The position numbers and the translations under genes are program-made. Positions 19,567 through 63,322 of a stretch of DNA of 64,000 nt are shown here, one piece after another; the stretch's first letter is position 1, and every line of letters begins with the position of its first letter. The DNA is from Bacteroides ovatus. GTDB lineage: Bacteria; Bacteroidota; Bacteroidia; Bacteroidales; Bacteroidaceae. The stretch lies in contig NZ_CP012938.1 of NCBI RefSeq assembly GCF_001314995.1, forward strand, positions 1,178,001 through 1,242,000. The letters are read 5' to 3'. The notes beneath the pieces were generated by a model, which saw only the letters and a program-made list of their open reading frames with translations, was not told where the DNA came from and did no database searches.

Positions 19567-19759
19567 ATCACAAATAGTTAAATTAATTAAAGGTCTGTGT
19601 GAATCAATGACGCTCTTTTTTGGGGGGAGTACATTGATTTTTTCGTTTGCAAAATTACGCTTTTCCGTTCAATCTATCGATACAATCGTCCGGTAAACTT
19701 CCAATATTATACAAAAAAAGGTTGCCAATCTTATCGACTGACAACCTCATCTTATATGG

Positions 19760-19832
19760 AGCGGAAAACGAGACTCGAACTCGCGACCCTAACCTTGGCA
19801 AGGTTATGCTCTACCAACTGAGCTATTTCCGC
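19760..19832 (-). tRNA. tRNA-Gly (GCC)
   Basis: The minus strand starts GCGGAAA and ends TTTCCGC plus a T discriminator, a 7-bp acceptor stem. The anticodon loop 'CTTGCCAAG' gives GCC. CCA is not encoded. It is the last gene of the tRNA operon and identical in sequence to the other two Gly copies here. Confidence 0.96.
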
Positions 19833-19869
19833 AAACTAAATTTCGTCATTCAGAAATCTGAAAGATGGG

Positions 19870-19951
19870 TGCCCAGAACAGGACTCGAACCTGCATGCCT
19901 CTCGACACACGCACCTGAAACGTGCGCGTCTACCAATTCCGCCACCTGGGC
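19870..19951 (-). tRNA. tRNA-Leu (CAG)
   Basis: Class II tRNA with a long variable arm (TGTCGAGAGGCA region). Acceptor GCCCAGG pairs with the 3' TCTGGGC, discriminator A. The anticodon stem CACGT/GCGTG (one T-G pair) holds the loop TTCAGGT, giving CAG. Confidence 0.95.
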
Positions 19952-19983
19952 AAAACTTAGTTCCATTATTTCAAAGAAACAAG

Positions 19984-20056
19984 AGCGGAAAACGAGACTC
20001 GAACTCGCGACCCTAACCTTGGCAAGGTTATGCTCTACCAACTGAGCTATTTCCGC
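19984..20056 (-). tRNA. tRNA-Gly (GCC)
   Basis: Second of three identical Gly copies; acceptor GCGGAAA/TTTCCGC and GCC anticodon. It is 32 bp upstream of the following Leu(CAG) gene, in transcription order. Confidence 0.96.
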
Positions 20057-20075
20057 ATTTCACTTTCATAAACTG

Positions 20076-20159
20076 TGAAGAGGAGGAGACTCGAACTCCC
20101 ACAACATTTCTGTCACTACCACCTCAAAGTAGCGCGTCTACCAATTCCGCCACCTCTCC
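20076..20159 (-). tRNA. tRNA-Leu (GAG)
   Basis: Class II tRNA. Acceptor GGAGAGG pairs with CCTCTTC with one G-T pair, discriminator A. The anticodon stem CTACT/GGTAG holds TTGAGGT, giving GAG. It is the only single-copy tRNA of the cluster. Confidence 0.95.
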
Positions 20160-20182
20160 ATAATTTTAAAGTTTAACCTTTG

Positions 20183-20264
20183 TGCCCAGAACAGGACTCG
20201 AACCTGCATGCCTCTCGACACACGCACCTGAAACGTGCGCGTCTACCAATTCCGCCACCTGGGC
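20183..20264 (-). tRNA. tRNA-Leu (CAG)
   Basis: Second copy, the same as the Leu(CAG) gene at 19870-19951 over the mature region. Transcribed after the first Gly gene of the operon. Confidence 0.95.
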
Positions 20265-20298
20265 AAAGATTATTGTTCCAACATTTCAAAGAAACATG

Positions 20299-20371
20299 AG
20301 CGGAAAACGAGACTCGAACTCGCGACCCTAACCTTGGCAAGGTTATGCTCTACCAACTGAGCTATTTCCGC
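20299..20371 (-). tRNA. tRNA-Gly (GCC)
   Basis: First gene of the operon in transcription order. Acceptor GCGGAAA/TTTCCGC and anticodon GCC. Its 5' end is about 20 bp from a strong promoter-like sequence. Confidence 0.96.
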
Positions 20372-45053: not shown

Positions 45054-45167
45054 TGTTCATAAATTCGTGAACACAATGAAATAATGAACGCAAAATTTGG
45101 CAAAGCAAAGAATGTTCACTAAATTTGCAGTGTTTATCAATTTATGAACATTATATGAACAATGAAC
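45054..45167 (+). promoter_or_regulatory. Promoter with repeated TGAAC operator-like sites ahead of the AbiEi-like operon
   Basis: A perfect consensus promoter, TTTG (45096-45099), 20 bp, TAAATTTG (45120-45127), lies 35 bp before the ATG. A palindrome TGTTCAtaaattcgTGAACA is at 45054-45073, and further TGAAC/GTTCA half-sites lie at 45085, 45113, 45145, 45156 and 45163, so the sites surround the promoter. Autoregulation by the first gene, as known for AbiEi proteins, is likely. Confidence 0.7.
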
Positions 45168-46154
45168 GATACAACAATGAGAACAGATTATTTGGAATTG
45201 TTTCATGAAGCCATCAACAATTTGAGGGCGACAACAAGGAATGACTGTATTGTCATTTGTGACGAATTGGACCAAACTATTAGCATTAATAGCTTGAAGT
45301 TTTATTGTGACATAAAGAAAACCATAAGCAACGCCAACATCTTTTCAGTCGTTGACGGAATCAGAAGTAAAAGTAGCGATAGGAATATGCCTATGGTTTT
45401 GATTACTGATAAAATCTATCCCAAATTAGCCAATACGCTTTCGGACAATCAAATCAATTGGATAGACAAAGTAGGAAATTGTGATATCAGACATAAGAGT
45501 CTAATCATTAAGATTGCCGGCCAAAAAGACAACACCCCCACTAAACCAAGTTCTACTTCAAAAATAAGTGAGACAAACATCAAGCTCATCTTATTCTTCT
45601 TGCAAAATCCTGAAAGCGTCAATTGGGCTTATCGTGAGATTCAAGAGAAAGTCGGGCTGTCTTTGGGCACTATCACGAAAGCTTTTGATTTGTTGAAAGC
45701 GAAACAGTACTTGGTGCAAACTGAAAAAGGCAGAAAGATTTCGATGCGCGAAGAACTTGTCGAATGGTGGCAACAGCAATACAATGAATTTTTGAAACCT
45801 AAATTACTCATCAATCGGATGACCTTCCGCAGTCCGGAGCATAGAAGAAAATGGAAAGAAATGCTTCTTCCCGAAGGTATGTATTGGGGAGGTGATTGTG
45901 GAGCCAACTTAGTAGATGGTTACTTAATCCCCGGTGAATTTGAAATTTATTCAGATGTAGCAAGTTCGTTGCTTCTTCGTACCGGTGCGGTAATGCCTGC
46001 CCCAAATGGGGAAATACGCATCTACAAGAAATTTTGGATAGGGGAAAGCAAACTAAACCTTGCCCCAAAATTAGTCATTTACGCGGATTTAATGGGTGCT
46101 GGAGACAGCCGTTGCCATGAGGCCGCATTAAGAATAAAAGAAAATGGAATATAA
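45162..46154 (+). CDS. AbiEi-like transcriptional regulator / putative antitoxin
   Basis: A 330-residue protein. A winged helix near residues 145-195 ('WAYREIQEKVGLSLGTITKA', with 'LLKAKQYLVQTEKG') is followed by a C-terminal domain ('EGMYWGGDCGANLVDGYLIP'). Both resemble the AbiEi antitoxin family of type IV toxin-antitoxin systems, which bind their own promoter. The ~140-residue N-terminal part is not usual for short AbiEi forms. It overlaps the next gene by 11 bp. The antitoxin role is inferred from family and from the nucleotidyltransferase neighbour. Confidence 0.7.
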   Translation: MNDTTMRTDYLELFHEAINNLRATTRNDCIVICDELDQTISINSLKFYCDIKKTISNANIFSVVDGIRSKSSDRNMPMVLITDKIYPKLANTLSDNQINWIDKVGNCDIRHKSLIIKIAGQKDNTPTKPSSTSKISETNIKLILFFLQNPESVNWAYREIQEKVGLSLGTITKAFDLLKAKQYLVQTEKGRKISMREELVEWWQQQYNEFLKPKLLINRMTFRSPEHRRKWKEMLLPEGMYWGGDCGANLVDGYLIPGEFEIYSDVASSLLLRTGAVMPAPNGEIRIYKKFWIGESKLNLAPKLVIYADLMGAGDSRCHEAALRIKENGI

Positions 46155-47019
46155 AATCACACGAGATACTTTACAGAATAATTTGCTTTATGACACCCTT
46201 GAAGCATTGAGTAAAGTAATGAACGACCTGCAACTGGATGTGTATGTTGTTGGCGCACTGGCAAGAGACATTGCTATGGAAATACTTGAAATGCCGCCTT
46301 CGCGTAGAAGAACATCTGATCTTGATGTGGCTATTGCCTTGAAAGATTGGAGTCAGTTCGAGTTATTGTCGGAAAATTTATTGAAAAACAATTTTGTCAA
46401 GGGTAAACCGAAACAGCGATTTTATTATAAAGGTGTGGATGGAAAGAATGACTACGAAATAGACATTGTGCCTTTCGGAGAATTGGAGGAAGACGAAAAA
46501 GTCGCATGGCCACCTGAAGGCAATCCTGAAATGTCGGTCAAATGTTTTAGAGACGTAATGAATATAGCCGATACAGTGGTGATTGAAGACGCCATTACAA
46601 TAAAGATGGCTCCTTTGTCAGGACAATTCCTCATTAAATTTGATACTTGGCTTGACAGGCACTTGCTCACAGACAAAGACGCAGCCGATATGCTTTATAT
46701 AATGGACAATTTCTATTTGGCATACGTTTCGTTCAAACAACCAGTTCCTGATGAGGTGCAGGAAACAAGTGAAAGTTTTGACCTCTTGAATGGTGGTGCT
46801 CGATGGATTGCTTGTGAAATGAAAGAATTTCTTACAAAAGAACACTTGCAATTCTATACCGACCAACTACAAGCGCAAATAGAACTGGATGAAAACAGTC
46901 CACTAATCAGGTCTATGAGTAGCAAGTATTCTGCAAGCGACTCACATATGATTGTGAGAAATGCACTAATCGGAATGGTTGAAGTATTAAAGAAAGGAGA
47001 AAACAATGAAAATAGATAG
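46144..47019 (+). CDS. Pol-beta-type nucleotidyltransferase (AbiEii-like toxin candidate)
   Basis: A 291-residue NTase with motif 'VGALARD' (G37, R41, D42) and acidic triad D59-x-D61 ('TSDLDVAI') and D107 ('YEIDIVPF'). Such motifs are found in AbiEii and MNT-type enzymes that modify tRNA or proteins with nucleotides. It starts 11 bp inside the upstream gene and its stop overlaps the phosphatase gene, so all three are coupled. Target unknown. A functional AbiEii role is inference. Confidence 0.75.
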   Translation: MEYKITRDTLQNNLLYDTLEALSKVMNDLQLDVYVVGALARDIAMEILEMPPSRRRTSDLDVAIALKDWSQFELLSENLLKNNFVKGKPKQRFYYKGVDGKNDYEIDIVPFGELEEDEKVAWPPEGNPEMSVKCFRDVMNIADTVVIEDAITIKMAPLSGQFLIKFDTWLDRHLLTDKDAADMLYIMDNFYLAYVSFKQPVPDEVQETSESFDLLNGGARWIACEMKEFLTKEHLQFYTDQLQAQIELDENSPLIRSMSSKYSASDSHMIVRNALIGMVEVLKKGENNENR

Positions 47020-47629
47020 CTTTTCAATAGAAGGTAAGCACAATTCAAATGAAGACAGCCTGTCAGTCCTTCAAATAATAGACGATAAGATTATCGCAGT
47101 ATTGGCAGACGGTATGGGTGGCTTAACATTTGGCAAGGAGGCAGCAGATTTGATTGTAAGCACAATTACAACTTTTGTTTGTGAGCACATAAATAAAATG
47201 ACTGTCAGCGATTTGTTGATTAAGGCATTAGAATTTGCAGACAAAGCCGTTTCCAAAAAGAGTTTGGAGATGCATAGTAAAATGGGCGCAGCCGTTGCTG
47301 TCGCCTTTATAGAAGATAGAGACATTCACTATACTTGGTTGGGCAATGTCAGAATTTATATTTCTGACCACGATGAAATGAAGCAATTAAGCACAGACCA
47401 CACTCTGAATATCGGATATGGTAAGTACCTGCTCACAAGGTGCATTAAAGGTGCAGGTTTAAGAGATGACATTCCATACCAATGCCAGAAAGCCAATGCT
47501 GGAAGTTCCCTTTTCCTTTGTACTGACGGACTTTATAAACAAGTCAAGGTCAATCAGATGTTAGACAAAGCTCTACCCACAAATGAAGAATATGAGGATG
47601 ATGCGACTTTAATAAGAATAGTTTTGTAA
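47006..47629 (+). CDS. PP2C-family protein phosphatase
   Basis: A 207-residue phosphatase with the PP2C metal ligands: D17 in 'NSNEDSLS' (the usual R of 'RxxNED' is H here), D35-G36 in 'LADGMGG', 'LCTDGLYK' near 172 and D198-D199 in 'YEDDATLI'. Its short length is at the lower limit for a full PP2C domain. It overlaps the NTase gene by 14 bp. A phosphatase in a type IV toxin-antitoxin-like operon is unusual; it may reverse a modification made by the NTase or act on a kinase-modified regulator, but nothing in the sequence shows which. Confidence 0.82.
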   Translation: MKIDSFSIEGKHNSNEDSLSVLQIIDDKIIAVLADGMGGLTFGKEAADLIVSTITTFVCEHINKMTVSDLLIKALEFADKAVSKKSLEMHSKMGAAVAVAFIEDRDIHYTWLGNVRIYISDHDEMKQLSTDHTLNIGYGKYLLTRCIKGAGLRDDIPYQCQKANAGSSLFLCTDGLYKQVKVNQMLDKALPTNEEYEDDATLIRIVL

Positions 47630-50753: not shown

Positions 50754-53700
50754 ATGACTTTCAACGATATACTACATAAATTTAGATCGGAGTCCTTTAC
50801 ACAAAAGGATAAAGGGACCCAATTTGAACGTTTGATGCGCTCTTGGCTGCTTTCAGACCCTCGGTATTCCAACCTCACTAAAGTATGGCTGTGGGATGAT
50901 TTTCCAAGCCGTGCAGATCTTGGAGGAAAGGATACAGGTATAGATCTTGTTGCACGTACCGAAGAAGGTGATTATTGGGCGATTCAATGTAAATGCTACA
51001 AGGAGGATTCAGTTATTGACAAGCCAGCTGTAGATTCATTCCTTGCAACATCAAGCCGCCAATTCAAAGATCCAGAGACTTTGCAAACGACCTCATTTGC
51101 AAAACGGATGTGGATTTCAACGACAAACCATTGGGGAAAGAATGCCGAAGATGCAATCCAAAATCAGAATCCTCCTTTTAACAGGGTCGGACTTGTAGAT
51201 TTACAGAACTCTCCAGTTGATTGGCAACTGCTCATTGATGGCCTTAAAGGTAAAGAGGCTATGCTTCCGGGCAAACAGCCACGTGAGCACCAGTTGCGAG
51301 CTATGTCTGCCGCACATGCTTATTTTCAAGAACATGACAGGGGAAAACTTATCATGGCTTGCGGTACAGGAAAGACATATACCGCATTAAAAATAGCGGA
51401 AGATTTACTGAACAATAAGGGGTTGGTACTTTTTATGGTGCCCTCTATTTCTCTTTTAGGGCAAAGTCTGAATGCTTGGTGTGCAGATGCAGTAAATCCC
51501 ATTAAGGGCATTTGTATTTGTTCGGATAGTCGTGCTTCACGAAAAATTAAGAAAGACTTTGATGATACGCAAGACAGTGTTGTTGACCTTGCTGTTCCGG
51601 CTACGACAAACCCCAAGAGCATTGCAAAGCAGTTGAAATTATATAGGAACCATAACGGACTGACGGTTGTATTTTCAACATACCAATCCATAGAGGCTAT
51701 ACATGCAGCCCAACATGAAATCCTCAAAGAAACTGCCGGAACGTATGGAAAATTCGACCTTATCGTTTGCGATGAAGCACACAGGACAACTGGAGTTAAA
51801 CTTTCAGATAGAGACGAAAGCAACTTTACGAAAATACATGATGCTGAATATATCAAAGGCAACAAACGCCTTTATATGACTGCAACCCCTCGTTTGTATG
51901 GGCAATCCGCAAAGATTAAAGCATCCGAAAAAGATGCGATACTTTGCTCTATGGACGACCCTAAACTTTACGGAGAAGAGTTTTTCAGAGTTAATTTCTC
52001 ATACGCAGTTGAGCATGGACTTTTAACGGACTACAAAGTTCTTGTACTTACAGTGAATGAGGATGACTTACCAGACAATATCCTTTCAGATATAAAAGAC
52101 CCTAATAATGTCGAATTAAATTTTGACGACACATCAAAGTTAATCGGTATTGTAAATGGCCTTTCCAAAATCATCCGTGGTGATAAACACGCAACATGGG
52201 ATGCAGATCCAACGGTGATGCACAGAGCTATCGCTTTCTGCTCCGCCATTGGAAACAATCATTCACCCGGTACTTCGGTTAATACAGCAGAAGTATTACC
52301 GACTATCTGCGAGAAGTATCGCGATTCCATTAGTACAGAAGAGCGAGAGCATGTTGTCGAAGTACAGGCACGTCATATCGACGGTTCTATGAACTCACAA
52401 GCACGCAATGAGCAGCTGGCATGGCTTGCAGATGAAAATATAGGTGAAAATGAATGCCGTGTACTTACAAATGTCCGTTGTCTTTCCGAGGGTATAGATG
52501 TACCGGCTCTTGATGCCGTTCTATTTCTCTCATCACGCAATTCACAAGTTGATGTTGTACAGTCGGTTGGCCGCGTCATGCGAAATTTCCGCAAGGGACA
52601 GCCTGACGAAAAAAAGTACGGATATATCATTATTCCCATAGTAGTGCCATCAGACGTTAAGCCAGAAGACGCATTGAATAACAACACTTATTTTTCAACA
52701 GTGTGGAGTATTCTCAATGCACTTCGTTCACATGATGACCATTTTAATGCAGAAGTCAACAAAATTGCACTCAACAAGAACAGGACATCAAAAGTTGTCG
52801 TTGGAGGGCCGGGCATAGGTCATAATGCAATTTCAGACAAGCAAGACCAACAAGATGCACAGCACATTGAAGATGCCGAAGTTGCGCGCCAATTACAACT
52901 TCGCTTTGGTGAGATGCAATCCGGCATATATGCCAAACTTGTTGAAAAATGTGGAGATCGGCTTTATTGGGAAAATTGGTCTAAAAAGGTAGGTCTTATC
53001 GCAAAGAAATTCATAGAACGAATTTCTAAGCTCGTATCTACAGTGCCTGCAATTAAGTCCGAATTTGATATATTCGTGAAAGGCTTGCAGAACAACCTAA
53101 ATCCATCCGTGGATGAGGGGCAAGCTATTGAAATGTTGGCACAGCACCTAATTTCTCAACCTGTTTTTGATGCTTTATTCGCGGATTATAACTTCGTAAA
53201 CAACAATGCAGTCAGCCACTCTATGCACAAAATGATAGAGCAGCTGGAAACTGTTGGTGGCTTTGAGAAAGATACCACTGAGCTTGAATCTTTTTACGAA
53301 TCCGTGCGCGTTAATGTTGGTAATATAGATAATTTGGAAGGAAAGCAAACAATCATCAAGAACCTGTATGAGAAGTTCTTCAAAGGTGCATTTCCTCTGA
53401 CTGTTGAAAAACTCGGCATTGTCTATACGCCAGTTGAATGTGTGGACTTCATCATTCACTCTGTCAATGACATCTTGAAACGGGAATTTAACACATCCCT
53501 TTCAGATGAAAATGTACACATTCTTGATCCATTCACAGGAACAGGTACATTCATCACACGCCTACTCCAGTCAGGACTTATTAAACCCGAAGACATGGAA
53601 CGCAAGTATCGCAATGAAATACATTGCAATGAAATAGTCTTGCTTGCCTATTACATTGCCGATGTAAATATAGAAGCAGTATATCATGACCTGATGAAGC

Positions 53701-55709
53701 CAGATCACTATGTGAACTACGACGGAATTTGCTTAACAGATACTTTCCAACTTGCAGAAACCAAACAACAATCACTTTCACAAGAATTTTTCAAAGAAAA
53801 TTCAGAAGGAGTTTTGCGCCAAAAGAAAGCTCCAATTCGTGTTATCATTGGAAATCCTCCTTATTCGATAGGGCAAAAGTCTGCAAATGATAATGCTGCA
53901 AATATGACTTATCCCGTATTGGATAAACGAGTTTCTGATACTTATGCAGCAAAATCCTCAGCTAATTTGACGAAAGCATTATATGATAGTTATATTAAAG
54001 CTTTTAGATGGGCTACTGACCGTATTGCAGACAATTCAGATGGAGGCATAGTGGCATTTATTAGTAATGGTTCATGGCTTGACGGTAATGCTCAAGATGG
54101 TTTCCGTGCCTGTCTTGAATCTGAATTTACGGACATTTATGTGTTAAATCTTCGAGGAAATCAACGGACAAGTGGGGAATTATCTCGCAAAGAAGGTGGA
54201 AAGATTTTTGGAGGAGGTTCTCGTACACCTATAACGATTACAATTCTTGTTAAGAATCCTGCGAAAAATAGTAAAGCTGCTACAATCCACTATCATGATA
54301 TAGGAGATTATCTGACTCGTGAACAGAAGCTAAACTTTATCAAAAAATTCAAGTCGGTACATGGTCGTACACTTGACTGGGAAGTTATAAATCCAACAGA
54401 GAAACATGATTGGATAAATCAACGCGATGGCATTTTTGACCAGCTTATTCCAGTAGCCCCTGAGAAGAAGTTCAAAATAGACGAGCAATCTTTCTTTTCT
54501 ACCTTATCATTAGGTATTGCTACCAATAAGGATACTTTTTTGTATGATTTTTCAAAAGAATCATTATGCAATAAAATAGAATCATTGATTTCGTTCTATA
54601 ATTCGGAGCGTATGAAATTAGCATTAAATGCCAATTATGAATTACAAACTGATCCTACAAAAATAGTATGGACAGATATGTTTAAGAACTCTGCAAAAAA
54701 ACAGGAGATATTCAAATTAGACTATTCGCGGTTTGTAGAATCCTGTTATCGACCTTTTACTAAGCAAAATTTTATTTTTCAAAAAGATTTAATTCAGCGT
54801 ACATATCAGCAACTAAGATTATTCCCTACGGGCATCACTTCTAACAAATTAATTTGTGTTAGTGGTATTGGTGTAACAAAGGACTTTTCTTGTATAATTA
54901 CTGATCAACTACCAGATCTTGAACTCATCGGCAAAAGCCAATGTTTTCCTCTTTATTGGTATGAAGAGCGAAAAGACATTCAAGGCTCGCTTTTTGACAC
55001 AGATGAATCAAAAGACCGTTATAAAAGACATGATGGCATAACAGACTGGATTCTAAAAGAAGTGCGTAAACGCTTCGGCAATTCCAAGGCTATCACTAAA
55101 GAGCATATTTTCTATTATGTCTATGGTATCTTGCATTCTCCGCAATACCGCGAACGTTTTGCAGCTGACCTTAAGAAATCTCTTCCACGTATTCCCATCG
55201 TTGACAATGTGGAGGACTTCATGGCTTTCTATAAGGCAGGGAAAGCTCTTGCTGATTTGCACTTGAATTACGAGCAAGTTCCACCCTGTCCCGATGTTAC
55301 TCCAAAGGTCGCTGATGCTGTATTTGAGGAAGATTCCGCTGAAAAGCCTTTTGCTTACACCAAGTATAGCCATTTCTTTGTAGATAAGATGACATTCCCC
55401 AAAGTTAGGAATGAAAAAGGTAAACTTGTTCCTGATAAATCACGTATTATTTACAATGATCATATTACTATAGAGAATATTCCGGCGAAAGCCTATGAAT
55501 ATATAGTCAACGGTAAATCAGCGATAGAATGGATTATGGAGCGATATGCTGTTTCTCAGGATTCAAAATCTCTCATTATAAATGATCCTAATGAGTGGAG
55601 TCGTGAGCATAAGAATCCTACTTACATTTATGACCTCCTTCTCTCGGTAATAAATCTTTCGGTTCAGACAGTTGACATAGTCAACTCACTTCCGAAACTG
55701 AAATTCTAA
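50754..55709 (+). CDS. Type ISP single-chain restriction-modification enzyme
   Basis: A 1651-residue protein, near the size of LlaGI/LlaBIII. Domains in order: Mrr-like PD-(D/E)xK nuclease ('GIDLVARTEEGDYWAIQCKC', about 65-90); SF2 helicase with Walker A 'CGTGKT' near 203, 'CDEAHRT' near 340 and 'QSVGRVMR' near 605; an amino-methyltransferase with motif I 'DPFTGTGTF' near 925 and motif IV 'NPPYSIG' near 1037; and a C-terminal target-recognition region. Such enzymes methylate one strand, translocate and cut when two head-to-head sites meet. It could work alone, yet 11 kb of genes follow on the same strand. ATG at 50754 is preferred over the upstream TTG. Promoter-like TACCTTTG is 146 bp upstream. 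Confidence 0.92.
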   Translation: MTFNDILHKFRSESFTQKDKGTQFERLMRSWLLSDPRYSNLTKVWLWDDFPSRADLGGKDTGIDLVARTEEGDYWAIQCKCYKEDSVIDKPAVDSFLATSSRQFKDPETLQTTSFAKRMWISTTNHWGKNAEDAIQNQNPPFNRVGLVDLQNSPVDWQLLIDGLKGKEAMLPGKQPREHQLRAMSAAHAYFQEHDRGKLIMACGTGKTYTALKIAEDLLNNKGLVLFMVPSISLLGQSLNAWCADAVNPIKGICICSDSRASRKIKKDFDDTQDSVVDLAVPATTNPKSIAKQLKLYRNHNGLTVVFSTYQSIEAIHAAQHEILKETAGTYGKFDLIVCDEAHRTTGVKLSDRDESNFTKIHDAEYIKGNKRLYMTATPRLYGQSAKIKASEKDAILCSMDDPKLYGEEFFRVNFSYAVEHGLLTDYKVLVLTVNEDDLPDNILSDIKDPNNVELNFDDTSKLIGIVNGLSKIIRGDKHATWDADPTVMHRAIAFCSAIGNNHSPGTSVNTAEVLPTICEKYRDSISTEEREHVVEVQARHIDGSMNSQARNEQLAWLADENIGENECRVLTNVRCLSEGIDVPALDAVLFLSSRNSQVDVVQSVGRVMRNFRKGQPDEKKYGYIIIPIVVPSDVKPEDALNNNTYFSTVWSILNALRSHDDHFNAEVNKIALNKNRTSKVVVGGPGIGHNAISDKQDQQDAQHIEDAEVARQLQLRFGEMQSGIYAKLVEKCGDRLYWENWSKKVGLIAKKFIERISKLVSTVPAIKSEFDIFVKGLQNNLNPSVDEGQAIEMLAQHLISQPVFDALFADYNFVNNNAVSHSMHKMIEQLETVGGFEKDTTELESFYESVRVNVGNIDNLEGKQTIIKNLYEKFFKGAFPLTVEKLGIVYTPVECVDFIIHSVNDILKREFNTSLSDENVHILDPFTGTGTFITRLLQSGLIKPEDMERKYRNEIHCNEIVLLAYYIADVNIEAVYHDLMKPDHYVNYDGICLTDTFQLAETKQQSLSQEFFKENSEGVLRQKKAPIRVIIGNPPYSIGQKSANDNAANMTYPVLDKRVSDTYAAKSSANLTKALYDSYIKAFRWATDRIADNSDGGIVAFISNGSWLDGNAQDGFRACLESEFTDIYVLNLRGNQRTSGELSRKEGGKIFGGGSRTPITITILVKNPAKNSKAATIHYHDIGDYLTREQKLNFIKKFKSVHGRTLDWEVINPTEKHDWINQRDGIFDQLIPVAPEKKFKIDEQSFFSTLSLGIATNKDTFLYDFSKESLCNKIESLISFYNSERMKLALNANYELQTDPTKIVWTDMFKNSAKKQEIFKLDYSRFVESCYRPFTKQNFIFQKDLIQRTYQQLRLFPTGITSNKLICVSGIGVTKDFSCIITDQLPDLELIGKSQCFPLYWYEERKDIQGSLFDTDESKDRYKRHDGITDWILKEVRKRFGNSKAITKEHIFYYVYGILHSPQYRERFAADLKKSLPRIPIVDNVEDFMAFYKAGKALADLHLNYEQVPPCPDVTPKVADAVFEEDSAEKPFAYTKYSHFFVDKMTFPKVRNEKGKLVPDKSRIIYNDHITIENIPAKAYEYIVNGKSAIEWIMERYAVSQDSKSLIINDPNEWSREHKNPTYIYDLLLSVINLSVQTVDIVNSLPKLKF

Positions 55710-55728
55710 CATTAAAATATATAGAATA

Positions 55729-56691
55729 ATGGCATTATCAACAGAAATGATTCTTACCCTTCAACAGTTAGATGGAGTTGGTAATAAAACGATATTCAAA
55801 ATTGCAGATCAAGCAGACACTCACATTACGACAATGGAAAGCCTGTGCAAATTTTGGAAAAGTCTAAAAGGGAAAAAGCTGCAATCCATTACTGCAGATG
55901 ACTTGGAAGATGCACATCGAGTAGCGTTACGTATTATTTCAAAATGTAAAAGTGAAGATGTTGGCATAATATCTTTTTATGAAAGCATTTTCCCAGAGAT
56001 CTTGAAATCTTGCGTAAACGAAGAAGGCAAATTAGACCCGCCCATACTTCTCTATTACAGGGGTAATCTTGATGTATTGAAAAAGCTTGGAATTGCTGTC
56101 ATTGGAACCAGAGAGCCTACTCGAAATGGCATTTTGGCAGGAAAACATTTTTCTGGTGAATTTGCCAAACGAGGGTATAACATCGTCTCAGGCCTTGCCA
56201 TCGGATGCGATACTACTGGGCATCAGGGTGCATTAGCCGTAGGAGGAGCTACTACTGCATTTCTGGCAAATGGCCTTGATTGGGATTCAATATATCCCAA
56301 AGAAAACCTCGATTTGGCAAAGGAGATCGTTGTAAAAAGAGGCTTGCTATTAAGTGAATACCCTGTTGGCCAAAGTTGCGGAAGATACGGTTTGGTTGCA
56401 AGAGATAGATTGCAAGCCGGCCTATCTTATGCTACTGTCGTAGTCCAAACAGGTGTAAAGGGTGGTACTATGCACGCTGTTAATGCAACTATTCAGTCCA
56501 AAAAGCCTCTTTTTGCTGTAGAGTATAAGACAGATGAAGACACTTCCAATGAAAAAGTTCAAGGTAACATTAAACTTGTGAAGGAACAGAAGGCTTACGC
56601 TCTCCGTTCTACTGGTATAGATGATGCCTGTTCTATCATTGAAAAGGCTCATAAGAGTATCAATCCAGTTCAGCAACAATCACTTTTTTAG
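55729..56691 (+). CDS. DprA-like Rossmann-fold protein (ShosA-like)
   Basis: A 320-residue DprA/Smf homologue. Core motifs: 'AVIGTREPTRNG', 'VSGLAIGCDTTGHQGAL', 'LANGLDWDSIYPKENLDLA', 'LLSEYPVGQ' and 'GLVARDRLQAGLSYATVVVQ', then 'GGTMHAV'. The conserved RNR of DprA is 'RDR' here. There is no N-terminal SAM or C-terminal winged helix, only a short N-terminal helical part. DprA-like proteins paired with a PRTase toxin are the antitoxins of ShosTA systems; the next gene encodes that PRTase. It is 19 bp downstream of the RM gene. Competence DprA function is less likely in this setting. Confidence 0.82.
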   Translation: MALSTEMILTLQQLDGVGNKTIFKIADQADTHITTMESLCKFWKSLKGKKLQSITADDLEDAHRVALRIISKCKSEDVGIISFYESIFPEILKSCVNEEGKLDPPILLYYRGNLDVLKKLGIAVIGTREPTRNGILAGKHFSGEFAKRGYNIVSGLAIGCDTTGHQGALAVGGATTAFLANGLDWDSIYPKENLDLAKEIVVKRGLLLSEYPVGQSCGRYGLVARDRLQAGLSYATVVVQTGVKGGTMHAVNATIQSKKPLFAVEYKTDEDTSNEKVQGNIKLVKEQKAYALRSTGIDDACSIIEKAHKSINPVQQQSLF

Positions 56692-56753
56692 TAAAGGTCA
56701 TTATTGAGTTTATTGTTTTATCACGAGAAAGACGAATCATTAAACAGTTGGAT

Positions 56754-57434
56754 ATGTACAATTATTATTATCTTAAAGAATATCTTCCAAAGAGATATAG
56801 TGCTGACATTCAACAGGAGCAGGATAGAGAAATAGTCTATGCTTTCAAAAATGGAGAACTTTCAGAAAGTATTAAGAAAAGTTTTCTCGATAAAATAAAA
56901 GAGATTACCGGCAACTCAAAGAGCGAATGGGTAGTTTGCTTTATTCCTGGTTCTACAGAGCATAAGACATCCATAAGATTTTCTAAGTTAGCAGATGCTA
57001 TCCGAAAAGAAGGATATTCTGTTGAGCAAAAAGCCATATTTAATAAATATGACAAAGATGCAGGTTATCTTACAGGAAAAACCGGCAATCCAATTGAATC
57101 ATTTGGATTTGACGGAACTGGAATCGTGAACAAGAATATTCTTTTAATAGATGATGTTATCACAAGAGGCACAACATTCAATTTAACAGCAGATAAATTG
57201 AAATCACTTGGTGCAAAAAATGTGACAGGTCTCTTTTTGGCACACACGATCAATCCTGATTACAGCTCATGCTATGAAGAACCGTATAATGAGGAGCCAG
57301 ACTATGACCCTTATGAGGAAGAAACATATGAAAGGTATAACGGCTCATATGCGCAAGACGTTGAAGGTTGGAGTGATCAAGATATAGATGATGTATTTGA
57401 TGGCGATCCAGATGCGTACTGGAATATTGATTAG
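56754..57434 (+). CDS. Phosphoribosyltransferase-domain protein (ShosT-like) with acidic tail
   Basis: A 226-residue protein. The PRPP-binding loop is 'LLIDDVITRGTT' at about 131-142, with 'VVCFIPGSTEHKTSIRFSKL' upstream, as in ComF-like PRTases. The last ~60 residues are very acidic and tyrosine-rich ('EEPYNEEPDYDPYEEETYER'), a feature outside the family core. The upstream gene is DprA-like, so the pair resembles the toxin and antitoxin of ShosTA. ATG 56754 is used; the TTG two codons upstream is less likely. It is 62 bp after the DprA-like gene. Confidence 0.75.
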   Translation: MYNYYYLKEYLPKRYSADIQQEQDREIVYAFKNGELSESIKKSFLDKIKEITGNSKSEWVVCFIPGSTEHKTSIRFSKLADAIRKEGYSVEQKAIFNKYDKDAGYLTGKTGNPIESFGFDGTGIVNKNILLIDDVITRGTTFNLTADKLKSLGAKNVTGLFLAHTINPDYSSCYEEPYNEEPDYDPYEEETYERYNGSYAQDVEGWSDQDIDDVFDGDPDAYWNID

Positions 57435-57491
57435 AATAAAATCCATTGTCGGCAGGTAAAAACAACCAGCCAAATTAGTAACAATGACTTA

Positions 57492-57995
57492 ATGATTATG
57501 AGAAGTATAATTTTCGATATGGACTTGACATTGGTTGATACCACATGTTTAGAAGAACTACGACATAAAAGGGAATGGAGTCAGGTATATAACTTGATTC
57601 CCCAAACATCAATGTATGCAGGCATGGCTGATGTTTTAGAAGTTATCCGTAAGCATAACATTAAAACAGCCATTGTCAGTACATCCCCACGTCCTTATAT
57701 AGAGCGACTAATAGCTTTTTATAATATTCCAGCCCAATACATCGTGAGTTATCATGATGCAAAGCCAATAAAGCCGCATCCTGCTCCGATGCTAAAAGCC
57801 CTTGAATTTATGCAAATCCCTGCTTCAAAAGCTATCTCTTTTGGTGACAGAGTCATTGATATTCAGGCATCGAATGCTGCAGGCATTGAAAGTGTGGCTT
57901 GTTTTTGGGGAACGAAAGAAAAGAGCGAGTTGCTACAATCAGGCTATTCTCATGCAATTGTTAGACCTGATGAGATATTAACCTTGATAAGATAA
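57492..57995 (+). CDS. HAD-superfamily phosphatase
   Basis: A 167-residue hydrolase of the phosphoglycolate phosphatase/PpaX type. Motif I 'FDMDLTLVD' has the nucleophile D9 and acid D11, motif II is 'AIVSTS', motif III K in 'KPIKPHPAP', and motif IV 'SFGDRVIDIQAS'. All catalytic residues are present; the cap domain is small. The substrate is probably a phosphorylated nucleotide or sugar in this setting, inferred from the PRTase genes on both sides. It is 57 bp after the PRTase gene and 5 bp before the 857-residue gene. Confidence 0.85.
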   Translation: MIMRSIIFDMDLTLVDTTCLEELRHKREWSQVYNLIPQTSMYAGMADVLEVIRKHNIKTAIVSTSPRPYIERLIAFYNIPAQYIVSYHDAKPIKPHPAPMLKALEFMQIPASKAISFGDRVIDIQASNAAGIESVACFWGTKEKSELLQSGYSHAIVRPDEILTLIR

Positions 57996-58000
57996 TCAAT

Positions 58001-60574
58001 ATGGGTGTATTTGATAGTATCCTGGGCTTCCTTAATCCTGAGGTTATTTCTACATACAATGATTTGGTAAATAACCACTCTGAAGCATTTCGCAGATGGC
58101 GGGGCAAACAGATTGTAGGCACTCTTTCTAGCTGTTTTGACCTCCGCCCAACATATAATGACAAATTGTATGTTGTAAATCATAAAAAAGAAATTTTGGA
58201 TTTTGAGAAAATAATTGCTGAAGAAAAGGCGTATGACAAGCGTAGGCAAGATGTTATCCAAGCCGCTTCTCTATATCCACACGCATTTTATGAGTTAGTA
58301 AAAAAACTTTCGCTTAATGATATACCCGGAGTTTCTGTAACATTGCCTGGTAACAGGAAAAGCAAATATGCTATTCGCCTTGAGAATGAAGCAAGATTGA
58401 AAAAAGGAGAGAAATCCGACCCTCTTATAAATCCAATGAAAATAGCATGGGAATCCTTTCATTCCAGTGATTTAATTCGATTTAGAGAATTTCAAAAAAA
58501 GTGCATTCCTCAAGAACATATAAATAGAACCGCACCTCGTTCAATAGACAATCTAGACAAAGAAGAATACGAGAAAATTTATTTGCATATTAACGAGTTG
58601 CGTATGGATGAAGATCGTATTAAAGCTGAGCTAAGAAAGGAAGATTTACGGATTCAATATGAAGATGAAGTTTTAGCCAATGAAAGGCGAAAAAAATATC
58701 ATGAAAGTTTCTTGGTATTTTCACATCGTAGTCAAAGTGATATAGAATATTTGTGCCTCCATTTAAGCGAGTTAGATGCTTATGCGTTGAAATGCATAGA
58801 TGAAGAGTATGCTAAAATCGCAAAACAATATCCGTTTGGCCTTTCCGCATACAAATGTCAAAACACATATGGAAATGACAAAGAAATAATTATTCATAAG
58901 ATAGATGAAATACAAAAACTAGATGTTGCACAAAGAAAGTATAATCAACTAAAAAAGAAATACCCCAAAGGACTACCAGCCCTTGAAAGATATTATACAT
59001 ATGATGATGGAAAAAATAGTGCTGATTTATCAATATATGAGATCGTAGAGCGTGAAGACGAAATTTGTCTTTTTGAAAAATCTGCCGATGAAGCCTCCTT
59101 CTATGAAAAATGGATACATTCACAAGAGGAATATGCTGCAGAATGTAGAAAACTTATGCCTAAAATACTTTCAGATTACGGGTGCTACATTTATGAGATA
59201 CCATTTGAAATTTTAAAAGTAAACGGTGAAAAAGGAAGCGGACCATACAAGGTATGGAATTTATTCAATTCGGGATATAGCGAGGTTGATGGCGTAGATT
59301 TAAGTTATTTTCCTACCTACAAAAGCAATAAGGAAAATTTGCCTCAATTTTATAGAAAGCAGCGTTATTTCATCCAAAGAGTATATGATGATTTATTAGG
59401 TTTTATAGGAAAACTAAGTGAGATTTATAAAAAAGATGAGAATATAAAAATAGTATTTGCCATTGACGAACTTTTGACAAAGGATGTAGCAAACTATCAT
59501 TTTAAATATTTAATGGAACAACTCAACATAAGAGGTATTCCGTATGGATTTATCAATCCATCGCCCATTTCTGTTGAGGATCAAGTTCGTTATGTCGTTA
59601 TTGATTTGATTTCTACTGTCAGTCGAATGAAAGAAAACTGTCAGACATTAATCAACCTCAAAAGAAACTGCCGTAAAGATTGCTTAAAGAAAGGTCGCTA
59701 TGACTGTTATACGGATATAGTGTACATTTCTCTATTAAAAGGCTTTGAAAAAGAGGAAATTGTAAATGCCACAAAGAGGAAAATAAAAGAAAAAGCCAAA
59801 CAAGAAGCTGAAAGAATTAAGCGGGAGGAAGAAGAAAAGAAACGCATTGAAGAGGAAAAAAGAAAAGCGGAAGAAGCTGAAAGACTTAGAAAATTAGAAG
59901 AAGAAAGAATACGTTTGGAAGAATACAAACGGCAACAGGACATCAGTAATTTAAAGTCTTATGTATCTTCGTGGCCACAACCCAATCGTTCTACTCTTCA
60001 TTGCTTTTCACTCTATTACTATTATCCTACGACTTGCGACTGGGACGCATCTGAAAGGGAATGGGATATAAGAAATTTAATCTGGGATTTTAAGGCAAAT
60101 CCCAATAGGCCACAATCTGAGTTAGAAATCCAGAGCAGGCATAAAAGATCTATGAATGAAATTCTTCCTTTATTAAGGCGAGTAATAAATAAGTTTTTTG
60201 GAAGCAGAGCTTCTAAACTAACACTTGTTTGCATTCCGTCATCCAAGAAAATTGTAACGGAAAGAAGATACAAAGATTTTTCTGAAAATCTTTGTTCTTT
60301 GACCGGCATGAAAAATGGCTATGATTATGTTTACATTTTGAATGAAGGTGAGGCTAAACATTTGGGAGGAGTTGCCCAAGCCCAATTTAGTATAAACTCG
60401 GATTATTTTAAGGATAAATATGTTATACTATTTGACGATGTAATTACATCTGGAAGATCAATGGAAAATTTCAAGAGACTTTTGGAAGGATCAGGTGCAA
60501 AAGTAATAGCAGGTTTATCCATTGGAAAAACAAGACATGAAAGAGAATTCTCACAACCTATAGATAACATATGA
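58001..60574 (+). CDS. Large protein with coiled coil and C-terminal PRTase-like domain
   Basis: An 857-residue protein of unknown family. Residues 1-580 have no domain I can name: charged, helical and soluble. A long charged coiled coil is at about 585-648. The C-terminal ~170 residues carry a PRPP loop 'ILFDDVITSGRSM' near 808-820 and 'LVCIPSSKKIVTERRYKDF', which is similar in layout to the smaller PRTase of the same cluster. So the cluster has two PRTase domains. A nucleotide-salvage-like or base-exchange activity on a signal or DNA precursor is possible but not shown. It overlaps the next gene by ATGA (60571-60574). Confidence 0.75.
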   Translation: MGVFDSILGFLNPEVISTYNDLVNNHSEAFRRWRGKQIVGTLSSCFDLRPTYNDKLYVVNHKKEILDFEKIIAEEKAYDKRRQDVIQAASLYPHAFYELVKKLSLNDIPGVSVTLPGNRKSKYAIRLENEARLKKGEKSDPLINPMKIAWESFHSSDLIRFREFQKKCIPQEHINRTAPRSIDNLDKEEYEKIYLHINELRMDEDRIKAELRKEDLRIQYEDEVLANERRKKYHESFLVFSHRSQSDIEYLCLHLSELDAYALKCIDEEYAKIAKQYPFGLSAYKCQNTYGNDKEIIIHKIDEIQKLDVAQRKYNQLKKKYPKGLPALERYYTYDDGKNSADLSIYEIVEREDEICLFEKSADEASFYEKWIHSQEEYAAECRKLMPKILSDYGCYIYEIPFEILKVNGEKGSGPYKVWNLFNSGYSEVDGVDLSYFPTYKSNKENLPQFYRKQRYFIQRVYDDLLGFIGKLSEIYKKDENIKIVFAIDELLTKDVANYHFKYLMEQLNIRGIPYGFINPSPISVEDQVRYVVIDLISTVSRMKENCQTLINLKRNCRKDCLKKGRYDCYTDIVYISLLKGFEKEEIVNATKRKIKEKAKQEAERIKREEEEKKRIEEEKRKAEEAERLRKLEEERIRLEEYKRQQDISNLKSYVSSWPQPNRSTLHCFSLYYYYPTTCDWDASEREWDIRNLIWDFKANPNRPQSELEIQSRHKRSMNEILPLLRRVINKFFGSRASKLTLVCIPSSKKIVTERRYKDFSENLCSLTGMKNGYDYVYILNEGEAKHLGGVAQAQFSINSDYFKDKYVILFDDVITSGRSMENFKRLLEGSGAKVIAGLSIGKTRHEREFSQPIDNI

Positions 60575-61293
60575 ATGCAGAATTTGCAAAAACATTAAGA
60601 AGGAGATTATATCCTTTATATGAGAGCCTTATACAATCTGTAAAAGGTTTTTCATATTCCAAGGCTTTTTTCTGTATGCAATGGGGACGTAACTTTCCAG
60701 AGAGTGAACATGCCGGCATTCTGTTTGTAGGAAGAGCTACAAATGGATGGATTACTGACGAAGAAGATATTGATGTATTATTTGGGAATACTGCTGATAG
60801 GATCTTTAATAGAGATGACCAGATGCAGTGGGTAGAAAACTCTGAGGGAAATAATAATGGTTACAATTCACGTCGGTCTGCATTTTGGAGGGTTATAAAA
60901 AGAGTCTCTGAATATTATTACCCAGAAGATTGGTCAAGCTATATAGCATGGAGTAATGTCTGCAAGGTCGCCCCATTCAATGGAGGTAATCCAAACAACG
61001 AACTGTATTACGCACAATTAGAAACTTGTCTAAAAATATTGGAAATAGAGATTGAACAACTTTCCCCCAGGATAATTGTATTCCTAACAGGTGAAAACTG
61101 GGTTCAGGATTTTCTATCATATCTAAATCATGAGAATTACGATCAAGCCATTGAATGTAAATCATGGGGAGAATACAAATCTACAGCTTACTTAATTAAG
61201 AATACAATTATGATTTGTTCCGAACACCCACAGGGGAAAAACGAAAACTTACATTCAAAAGCGATAATAGATATAATTAATGATTTGAAATGA
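60571..61293 (+). CDS. Uracil-DNA-glycosylase-like superfamily protein
   Basis: A 240-residue protein. Motif A-like 'LFVGRATNGW' (48-57), then 'WSNVCKVAPFNGG', 'IIVFLTGENW' and motif B-like 'SEHPQGKNENLHSKA' follow the order of UDG-superfamily proteins. The GATNGW stretch and the HP-x3-N motif recall base-binding loops, but the catalytic Asp of family 1 is not obvious. It may bind or remove modified bases in foreign DNA; binding without catalysis is equally possible. It shares ATGA overlaps with both neighbours. Confidence 0.6.
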   Translation: MNAEFAKTLRRRLYPLYESLIQSVKGFSYSKAFFCMQWGRNFPESEHAGILFVGRATNGWITDEEDIDVLFGNTADRIFNRDDQMQWVENSEGNNNGYNSRRSAFWRVIKRVSEYYYPEDWSSYIAWSNVCKVAPFNGGNPNNELYYAQLETCLKILEIEIEQLSPRIIVFLTGENWVQDFLSYLNHENYDQAIECKSWGEYKSTAYLIKNTIMICSEHPQGKNENLHSKAIIDIINDLK

Positions 61294-61844
61294 GTTTACT
61301 ACAATACATATTACCAATTCAAAACACCAACTACGTAGATGGTTGTGGTTTTCTAATTGATGGGTATTTCATTACTCCTGGGCACGTAATAAGGGATTCT
61401 GAAAATCCCTTTATTTTTTTATCAAAAAGGAAACGTTATCTTACGCAGCCCTCGTTTTATGAAGTAAATGAACAGGATGCCTCCAAATATGACCTTGCAG
61501 TATTCTCCATGCCAGAAGTGAAAAGCGAACTTAAACTGTACAATGGCGTTATTGAAAGTGGAATGAAATTAAAGAGTATAAGTTTCAAAACAAGTACGTC
61601 TGGGTTTGATTTAATTGAGTGTGATGCTTTTGTAGAGTGTTATAAGCAAGAAAATTATTTTGGGGCATTAACAAACACACATCTTAAAGCAGGTTGTAGT
61701 GGAGGTCCAGCCATTATAGGTAACGAAGTTGTTGGTATTCTAACAAAGGGGAATAATAATGGGAATAACGAACCATGTAACAATATGCTACCTATTAATT
61801 TCTGTCTGTTTTTATCATCCAAAGCCATACGTAGAATAATATGA
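61290..61844 (+). CDS. Trypsin-like serine protease domain protein
   Basis: A 184-residue protein made almost only of a chymotrypsin-fold protease. The triad is H32 ('ITPGHV'), D68 ('KYDLAVFS') and S137 ('AGCSGGPAI'). No signal peptide or PDZ domain is present, so it acts in the cytoplasm, unusual for this fold. In defence loci such proteases can activate an effector by cleavage; the adjacent gene product has a long accessible coiled-coil region that may be a target, but this is inference. ATGA overlaps link it to both neighbours. Confidence 0.82.
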   Translation: MSLLQYILPIQNTNYVDGCGFLIDGYFITPGHVIRDSENPFIFLSKRKRYLTQPSFYEVNEQDASKYDLAVFSMPEVKSELKLYNGVIESGMKLKSISFKTSTSGFDLIECDAFVECYKQENYFGALTNTHLKAGCSGGPAIIGNEVVGILTKGNNNGNNEPCNNMLPINFCLFLSSKAIRRII

Positions 61845-63322
61845 ATGAAATCATAAAACAAGAGTCCTCTTCTGTTTCACAGAACATTTATAAGCCATCG
61901 GAAATTATTGGTATATTCAATTCCGTTTTAGCAAGACAATCTGTTAATGCTCAGATTGTATATCTGCGTGGTATCTATCTGGCAAATCAAAAACAAGGGA
62001 ATTGGGCATATTGCTATGACTCTTTAAGAGATGAAGATAGTCAAGAAGAACTCACACTACGGCTAACCCAACAACAGAGAGAGAACTTGAAAAACGGAAA
62101 TCTCGTAAGTGTAGGCGGCGTACTAAATCGAAATATCTCATCAAAAGGATTCATTCAAATTGTACTAAATGTTAGTCGCATTGAAATTGTAAAAGAGCAA
62201 GCCATAAGTGAGGATGAAATAAAACAGTCTGAATTAAGGCAGAAGAAGTCATCAATAGGATTTAAGAATGTCGATACTATCATTGAAAATTTGCTATTAT
62301 CAGACCGACGTCCTAAGATAGCACTAATTTTCGCTGAAACTTCAATTACTATGGGTGATTTTGAGGCAGGTATTAATGCTGCACGTACTGCTATTGATTT
62401 TGAAGAATACAGGGTTAGTTTCTCTAATTCAGCAGAGTTAGTGACACAGCTTAAAAAGGTTGATAAATTACAATATGATATAATTGCTATTGTAAGAGGC
62501 GGTGGTGGAGGAATCGAGAAATTGGATGACCTTAAAGTATTGGCTGCAATTATAGAACTAAAGACACCTATAATCGGAGCTATTGGCCATGTGGAGGAAA
62601 AGTTGTTTATCAAACAACTGGTAGATAAATGTGCTCCTACACCAAATGGCTTAAGACAATATTTTTCAGAAATGGTAGAAAGTGCCAATGAAAAGAAAAC
62701 GCATTCAAGGGCAATTTTAACAGAACAGATAAAAAAACAATTCAAAGAACAGATTGATGCCGGGCATAAACAGAACAAAGAATTGCAGGAGAAATTGCGT
62801 GTGCTTACTGAAAATCAAAAGAAAGCAACTGAGGCACAAGAAATAGCAACAAAGAAGCATAACGAGCAAGTAGAAGCCGCTAATAAACTAAACAAAGAAC
62901 TGCAAGATAAACTTCGTGTCCTGACAGAGAATCAAAAGAAAGCAGATGAAGAACAGCAGATAGCAAATAAAAAACATATAGAACAAATTGAGGCTGCGCA
63001 AAAGCAGAACCAGAGTCTACAAGAACAGCTAAAAACTCTCAATGAGAGCCAGAAAAAGCTTCAAATAATTCATCAAAAACAGCAGGAAGACTTAGGCAAG
63101 AATCTGACTAAGATGCAAGATGCGAATACTCTGTTACAAAAAAGTTTGGAAAAGGCTACCATGCAAAATGCAGAAACTTTGAAAGAGCTTAATCACGCAA
63201 AAGAGCAAGCAAAAGAACTCGAACATTCTATGTCCGAGCTTAAATCAAAGAAAGGCACAAATATATGGATGTGGATAGCTATATCTGCAATTCTTATATT
63301 ACTATGTATGTTGGTTCTATAA
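61841..63322 (+). CDS. Exonuclease VII large-subunit homologue with coiled coil and C-terminal membrane anchor
   Basis: A 493-residue protein. An OB-fold is at about 35-125, then an XseA-type catalytic domain at 150-270: D173 ('TMGDFEAG'), R219 ('VRGGGGG') and H250 ('AIGHVEEK') match the E. coli catalytic residues D155, R205 and H238, while D241 is E253 here. From about 290 to 465 lies a heptad-rich coiled coil with a repeat 'KLRVLTENQKKA'. The C-terminus (475-493, 'WMWIAISAILILLCMLVL') is a transmembrane helix. No xseB is nearby. Membrane anchoring of an ExoVII-like nuclease is unusual. It overlaps the protease gene by 4 bp and ends 16 bp before the polymerase gene. Confidence 0.82.
   Translation: MNEIIKQESSSVSQNIYKPSEIIGIFNSVLARQSVNAQIVYLRGIYLANQKQGNWAYCYDSLRDEDSQEELTLRLTQQQRENLKNGNLVSVGGVLNRNISSKGFIQIVLNVSRIEIVKEQAISEDEIKQSELRQKKSSIGFKNVDTIIENLLLSDRRPKIALIFAETSITMGDFEAGINAARTAIDFEEYRVSFSNSAELVTQLKKVDKLQYDIIAIVRGGGGGIEKLDDLKVLAAIIELKTPIIGAIGHVEEKLFIKQLVDKCAPTPNGLRQYFSEMVESANEKKTHSRAILTEQIKKQFKEQIDAGHKQNKELQEKLRVLTENQKKATEAQEIATKKHNEQVEAANKLNKELQDKLRVLTENQKKADEEQQIANKKHIEQIEAAQKQNQSLQEQLKTLNESQKKLQIIHQKQQEDLGKNLTKMQDANTLLQKSLEKATMQNAETLKELNHAKEQAKELEHSMSELKSKKGTNIWMWIAISAILILLCMLVL

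Follow-up and report, generated by a model that had tools for sequence, protein, structure and literature searches.

We propose that a conjugative-type element in Bacteroides ovatus carries a cluster of eight genes as defence cargo, in which a type ISP restriction-modification enzyme is combined with an expanded ShosTA-type toxin-antitoxin system whose toxin is split, an interpretation that we consider probable on the basis of sequence comparison. The cluster lies in a stretch of 64,000 nucleotides (contig NZ_CP012938.1, positions 1178001-1242000 of a 6.47 Mb genome), referred to here as the window, whose numbering is used throughout unless stated otherwise. The UDG-like, protease and membrane-anchored ExoVII-like genes of the cluster would be optional additions coupled to a long phosphoribosyltransferase (PRTase). 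What the sequences show is gene content, gene splits and fusions, linkage and conserved active-site motifs; every step of action is inferred. The cluster comprises eight intact open reading frames (ORFs):

50757-55709, + strand, type ISP restriction-modification enzyme (1650 amino acids from ATG; Pfam, PADLOC)
55729-56691, + strand, DprA-family ShosA-like protein (320 amino acids; PADLOC ShosA, solved chains)
56748-57434, + strand, PRTase-1, short phosphoribosyltransferase (PADLOC ShosT; phosphoribosyl pyrophosphate (PRPP) loop)
57492-57995, + strand, HAD phosphatase (Pfam HAD_2; motif alignment)
58001-60574, + strand, PRTase-2, large PRTase (857 amino acids; PADLOC ShosT)
60571-61293, + strand, UDG-superfamily protein (240 amino acids; Pfam UDG; alignment of 33 homologues)
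61290-61844, + strand, trypsin-like serine protease (184 amino acids; Pfam Trypsin_2, PADLOC RT-Protease_XI)
61841-63322, + strand, ExoVII large-subunit-like nuclease (493 amino acids; Pfam Exonuc_VII_L)

These genes occupy positions 50757-63322 (~12.6 kb), with intergenic spacings from first to last of 19, 56, 57, 5, -4, -4 and -4 bp. An earlier note, made from the DNA letters alone, had described eight clustered plus-strand genes of which the last four are tightly coupled by ATGA overlaps, and both the ORFs and the three overlaps read in the sequence (PRTase-2/UDG-like, UDG-like/protease and protease/ExoVII-like) agree with it. Its assignment of the genes to families of defence or DNA processing was likewise supported by Pfam and PADLOC, weakly so for the PRTases and the protease.

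The best reading of genes two to five is a system of ShosTA type whose toxin is split. The DprA-family protein matches Pfam DNA_processg_A (4e-51), PADLOC ShosA (4e-63) and, over residues 7-262, the solved chains 9vzo and 8zva (entered as ShosA and DprA, respectively), each at 1.3e-25; it is 38% identical to ShosA of phage PfAC02a and 30% to the product of the DprA gene beside P2-like ShosT, and is predicted to be a ShosA-like antitoxin or DNA sensor. The PADLOC ShosT model recognises both PRTases, PRTase-1 at 1.6e-14 with its PRPP loop LIDDVITRG kept in alignment, and PRTase-2 at 2e-13 over residues 691-852, in a C-terminal PRTase part with the loop LFDDVITSG that follows an N-terminal part of ~610 amino acids lacking a Pfam match. 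The Pfam matches of the two PRTases (6e-4 and 9e-6) are both under the Pfam cut-off, and Pfam found no helicase domain in either. The HAD protein matches HAD_2 (3e-20) and keeps the DxD, Ser/Thr, Lys and GDxxxD motifs in alignment; it went unrecognised by the PADLOC models scanned, and the HAD of a Sinorhizobium meliloti cassette weakly matched a PADLOC model named Hydrolase (1.2e-4). A protein of the P2-like phage P24C9, left without a name in its record, which matches the PDB ShosT 8zvb over its full length (E 7e-294), has a HAD-like N-terminus (Pfam Hydrolase 2.9e-4, under the cut-off; cassette-HAD profile 3.6e-6) and a PRTase C-terminus, and ShosT is noted in the record of phage PfAC02a as a HAD hydrolase/phosphoribosyltransferase. 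Since this ShosT-matching phage protein has both parts, the HAD and PRTase-1 of the window correspond to the two halves of ShosT, with the HAD as the N-terminal one.

The same core recurs in other genomes, in which neighbours were sought by phmmer with single window proteins at E 1e-3, so that distant members may escape. Among the 398 genomes searched from the window's family, five have a HAD match at E 1e-30 or better (the window genome, B. finegoldii and genomes G809, G893 and G775), and at all five loci a DprA gene is adjacent and a PRTase gene lies beside. The order is DprA-HAD-HIRAN protein-PRTase (646 amino acids) in G809 (locus L231), DprA-HAD-PRTase (654 amino acids) in G893 (L232) and PRTase-DprA-HAD-PRTase in G775 (L233). 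A distant locus, L003, reads UDG-protease-DprA-HAD-HIRAN protein-PRTase (641 amino acids)-ExoVII on a single strand, no gap exceeding 7 bp, thus retaining six of the seven non-restriction families (PRTase-1 is missing) in a new order and with a HIRAN protein added. Identity to the window is 72% in L231, 58% in L003 and 47% in L232 for DprA, and 78%, 70% and 61%, respectively, for HAD; between L003 and L231 the HIRAN proteins share 42% identity, with HIRAN matches of 2.5e-4 (under the cut-off) and 5e-6. Because DprA, HAD and a large PRTase occur together in L003, L231 and L232, PRTase-2 belongs to the ShosTA core; the earlier note had grouped it with the last three genes, a division at odds with the linkage in L231 and L232, where no match to the additions was found in the stretches read. 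Searches with the large PRTase matched 45 of 149 genus genomes, at full length only in the window and B. finegoldii, and a 649-amino-acid PRTase form (P0173) at E 1e-30 matched the window alone among 393 order genomes.

Linkage of HAD and DprA extends to plasmids, where 25 of the 28 top HAD matches (71 records matched, the best 60 listed) have a same-strand DprA gene within 2 kb; these 25 pairs include 10 enterobacterial and 7 Bradyrhizobium plasmids, each group being one form. Twenty-eight rows were compared for DprA also, from the best 60 of 234 records. The DprA-HAD-PRTase set recurs in other phyla, HAD-PRTase fusions included: Pfam places HAD and PRTase on a single chain in Psychrobacter and in Bradyrhizobium, a PRTase-HAD fusion occurs in Priestia and a HAD-PRTase-nuclease-RecQ fusion in Raoultella, the PRTase of the latter two being recognised solely or nearly so by PADLOC ShosT (5e-6 and 2e-7, respectively). 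Deinococcus encodes a HAD-DprA fusion. In view of the HAD-PRTase fusions and the HAD-like part of ShosT we reject the HAD as an independent layer; the earlier note had placed it, with the two PRTases, in a layer of nucleotide chemistry. The note's recognition of a ShosTA-like part is upheld by the ShosA and ShosT profile matches and by the match to solved ShosA. With HAD genes beside DprA in several phyla tied to the domain plan of solved ShosT, split and fused ShosTA become recognisable as one family. On a Segatella copri plasmid (L148, 14812-18234) three tandem PRTase-1-like genes are followed by DprA-HAD, which shows that the PRTase has multiplied outside the window as well; this cassette lies ~8 kb from a gene for a NACHT protein. 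Two further plasmid observations concern the HAD: a 1558-amino-acid protein (L221, 5001-9677) joins HAD, a weak PRTase, a DUF559 nuclease and a DpdF/PsyrT-like helicase and adjoins DprA, and a Cyanobacterium plasmid (L152, 4653-6498) carries a HAD of this type 3' of cas1 and cas2, without a listed DprA.

Three additions follow PRTase-2 in the window. The UDG-like protein matches Pfam UDG at 2e-8, at superfamily level only, and its family conserves GRATNGW and SEHPQGK stretches in an alignment of 33 homologues. These stretches differ from the usual UDG motifs, GRATNGW standing in place of the canonical motif A, which leaves glycosylase activity uncertain. The protease matches Trypsin_2 at 0.0046 (under the cut-off) and PADLOC RT-Protease_XI at 5e-10, and has a candidate His-Asp-Ser triad in TPGH, YDLAVF and CSGGP, a plausible triad being kept in alignment with the L003 protease. 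The ExoVII-like protein matches Exonuc_VII_L at 3e-16, and its core D, RGGG, GH and TP positions align with those of housekeeping XseA. It carries a long coiled coil and a C-terminal hydrophobic helix that is likely a membrane anchor. A strongly hydrophobic terminal helix is present in 117 of 117 ExoVII-like homologues of at least 440 amino acids (among the best 120) compared to none of seven XseA proteins; two short ExoVII-like proteins (L112 and L114) lack this helix in alignment. Against solved structures, the profile of the family yielded mostly coiled-coil matches and one ExoVII large subunit at 0.003.

Of 8000 candidate proteins scored, 1843 match the ExoVII-like protein at E 1e-3, which makes this a large family, although the number probably includes relatives of housekeeping XseA. 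Among 393 order genomes 120 matched at E 1e-3, with G372 the only strong match (6e-86) besides the window, and the remaining matches (best 1.2e-10) are read as housekeeping XseA, seven of them by alignment; in 399 family genomes seven matched at E 1e-15, counting the window and B. finegoldii. In L112 an ExoVII-like gene has PglZ, BrxL and Eco57I-type methylase genes as its neighbours, surroundings that suggest a BREX-type operon; in L162, and by annotation in L114, it adjoins a PD-(D/E)XK nuclease gene, and at other loci it stands alone or in mixed surroundings. This family, probably membrane-anchored, moves between defence contexts. At L169 (8733-11392) an ExoVII-like gene is found directly 3' of genes that by eye resemble ADP-ribosylglycohydrolase and Nudix hydrolase.

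Linkage between the additions and PRTase-2 was also assessed from longest contigs of identical exact length among the best 120 matches per family, with the expectation estimated from near-misses. PRTase-2 and ExoVII matches share such contigs three times (33107, 79175 and 211419) against 0.07 expected, and UDG and PRTase-2 matches once (16579) against 0.05. As this exceeds expectation, the linkage of ExoVII and the long PRTase is probably wider than the window and L003.

Several findings weigh against a split ShosTA with coupled additions. No UDG, protease or ExoVII match was found in the 19.9 and 15.1 kb read at L231 and L232, and the full set of additions was observed in just two arrangements. 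For the UDG-like protein, 80 of 94 relatives were kept as loci, and the core is present in two of them (L002, which is the same element as the window in B. finegoldii, and L003) and lacking in 78, some of whose flanks are cut by contig ends; two of these 78 have an isolated DprA gene and one an ISP-like gene. None of 13 other ExoVII-like loci has the core. No contig of identical size was shared by UDG and ExoVII matches, and the contigs shared by PRTase-2 and ExoVII matches span 33-211 kb, so that sharing one does not imply adjacency. Three of the 28 top plasmid HAD matches lack a listed DprA gene, the remaining listed DprA rows having been inspected for them by eye, three of the 28 DprA rows lack a listed HAD gene, and next to the HAD-DprA fusion of Deinococcus no PRTase was recognised.

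A conserved eight-gene system, as the earlier note had suggested, is ruled out by L003, L231 and L232 together with the free-standing UDG and ExoVII loci: other loci hold subsets, and the ISP gene is not kept. The note had itself named random independence of the restriction gene and the last four genes as one finding that would count against it, and the outcome is divided. Restriction, UDG and ExoVII genes do move independently, but L003 keeps six non-restriction families in a new order, which argues against pure chance. The cluster could alternatively be an ordinary defence island, in which the ISP enzyme, a split ShosTA and UDG, protease and ExoVII passengers accumulated as cargo with no joint mechanism. 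The independent movement of the UDG and ExoVII families, the variation of restriction or methylase genes between relatives and a defence-type gene group next door (AbiEi-like and PP2C, 45162-47629) are in keeping with this, whereas the three ATGA overlaps linking PRTase-2, UDG, protease and ExoVII, the same families reordered on one strand with tight spacing in L003, and the PRTase-2/ExoVII contig sharing speak for a closer association; we regard such an island as the less likely explanation, though a serious one.

The restriction enzyme itself is unexceptional. Pfam places a Mrr-type nuclease, SF2 helicase, coupler, N6-methylase and C-terminal specificity domain in this order in one chain, with a Type_ISP_C match of 9e-106; an alternative TTG start lies at 50745. 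LlaGI, LlaJI and LlaBIII are enzymes of this type. Three of four core loci have restriction or modification genes nearby, namely the ISP gene in the window, a pair of DNA methylase genes in L003 (no nuclease was recognised beside them) and the gene for the type I subunit HsdR in L231; no ISP match was seen in L003, L231 or L232. The restriction gene is interchangeable. In one database protein (P0287), ISP residues 1-94 are fused to ExoVII-like residues 182-493, which looks like the product of a single deletion (or an assembly error) of all that separates the two genes.

The mobile setting of the cluster is apparent from B. finegoldii DSM 17565 (G482, locus L002), which carries it with 1 mismatch in 12,578 bp; taken with the recurrence of its parts at other loci, this makes the cluster more than a chance grouping. 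The two genomes are 99.94-100% identical from genome position 1217763 (window 39763) to 1285550, a segment of 67.8 kb in the window genome and 58.5 kb in B. finegoldii; to its right identity falls to 80-89%, and to its left no match of at least 300 bases was found in the 1.3 kb compared, the B. finegoldii contig ending nearby. The shared segment encodes a TraG/TraD-type coupling protein, ArdC, DUF4138 and a DnaG-type primase protein. Given near-identity across species and conjugation-type genes inside, we infer that it is a conjugative-type element recently exchanged between them. A near-identity search of plasmids with the cluster gave no match. In viruses, scans with single sequences of HAD, PRTase-2 and the protease found no relative, the 33 loci obtained with the PRTase-2 alignment all lack a DprA or HAD match at E 1e-3, and the single locus obtained with the UDG alignment has none of the other cluster members.

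Outside the window, ~9.3 kb of the element (G000:C1:1266806-1276096) is missing from the B. finegoldii segment, and the flanking matches overlap there by 9 bp. The neighbouring group at 45162-47629 (+ strand) consists of mutually overlapping ORFs for an AbiEi-like antitoxin (AbiEi_2 3e-18), a 291-amino-acid protein without a Pfam match and a PP2C phosphatase, and six tRNA genes (Gly, Leu) cluster at 19757-20371 on the minus strand. An ORF 16 bp 3' of the ExoVII-like gene resembles a Y-family polymerase by eye. Promoter-like sites in the cluster number 53 (45.6 +/- 8.3 in shuffled sequence) and terminator-like sites 14 (8.3 +/- 2.9), of which four are on the plus strand, all intragenic; one of these lies at the end of PRTase-1 (57407-57423) and is followed by a promoter-like match at 57484.

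For a split ShosTA with coupled additions, the mode of action can be modelled on ShosT and ShosA. According to a review, ShosT, which is both PRTase and pyrophosphatase, upsets purine metabolism, its partner ShosA binds DNA, and T7 Gp0.7 is a trigger (PMC12593503). Based on that report, DprA would guard DNA and, bound to it, keep the PRTase/HAD pair silent; infection or cut DNA would disturb DprA and release PRTase and HAD, which could jointly distort the nucleotide pool until replication stops. The UDG-like enzyme might then remove unusual bases, single-stranded DNA arising from this might be digested at the membrane by the ExoVII-like enzyme, and the protease could serve as a switch that processes the long PRTase or the ExoVII coiled coil. 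Gene order alone suggests that base excision, exonuclease digestion and proteolysis are coupled to the toxin in this way. A poison-and-excise version, in which unusual nucleotides, made or enriched by the split ShosT (PRTases and HAD), enter DNA during replication and are removed by the UDG-like protein, while the membrane-tethered ExoVII-like protein degrades the broken strands, the protease acts as switch and DprA shields host DNA, seems to us unlikely. The cluster is a natural gene set for asking whether nucleotide-pool toxins couple to base excision and exonuclease digestion.

In a nucleotide-signal system, Ter-like or other, the PRTases and HAD would instead produce a nucleoside-type signal; this signal would activate the protease, and the protease would release the ExoVII-like nuclease. 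PRTases with HAD phosphatases have been proposed as Ter signal makers and DprA falls within the SLOG superfamily (PMC7824862), PRTases alone have been proposed as signal makers (PMC5512222), and the protease gene does sit between the UDG and ExoVII genes. However, no Ter protein (TerD, TerC or TelA type) is among the Pfam matches of the eight genes, the rest of the element having been scanned in part, and the closest families are those of ShosTA, with a reported toxin role (PMC12593503); we regard a signalling system as very improbable.

Compared with known systems, the cluster most resembles ShosTA of P2-like phages of Escherichia coli and the Pf phage PfAC02a (PDB ShosT 8zvb and 9w2p; ShosA 9vzo), sharing a DprA-type ShosA, a PRTase and a HAD. 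It differs in that HAD and PRTase are separate genes where ShosT is one chain, in the second PRTase of 857 amino acids and the UDG, protease and ExoVII genes, and in the HAD, which keeps DxD where P2-like ShosT starts MYLKAVIFSIAD. Having four core genes and additions instead of the two-gene operon, the locus is a ShosTA variant and not a plain member. PsyrTA/RqlHI also pairs a DprA-type partner with a PRTase toxin, there a RecQ-like helicase fused to a PRTase (PMC4670107); neither PRTase of the window has a helicase domain by Pfam. XseA shares the ExoVII_L domain but not the terminal hydrophobic helix, and a gene for the small subunit XseB was not noticed among the listed ORFs, with no search aimed at it. 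Brig1 and Brig3 are antiviral DNA glycosylases (PMC11078745, PMC13160076) and resemble the window, by their description, in placing a UDG-superfamily protein in a defence locus. Pfam found neither PglZ nor other BREX genes in the eight genes, and the ISP enzyme, which has the full domain order of its type, is an ordinary member with no difference noted. The validated systems of a recent machine-learning study include, by its text or figure legends, a PRTase and a HAD phosphatase, and its predicted systems a UDG (PMC13092281), so that it may overlap with the present set. A split-toxin form with a long PRTase, UDG, protease and membrane ExoVII was not found described in the open-licence literature, within which the earlier note's view that the full set is not a named system holds. 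While ShosTA, type ISP enzymes and ExoVII are each known, the enlarged split-toxin form therefore appears to be new.

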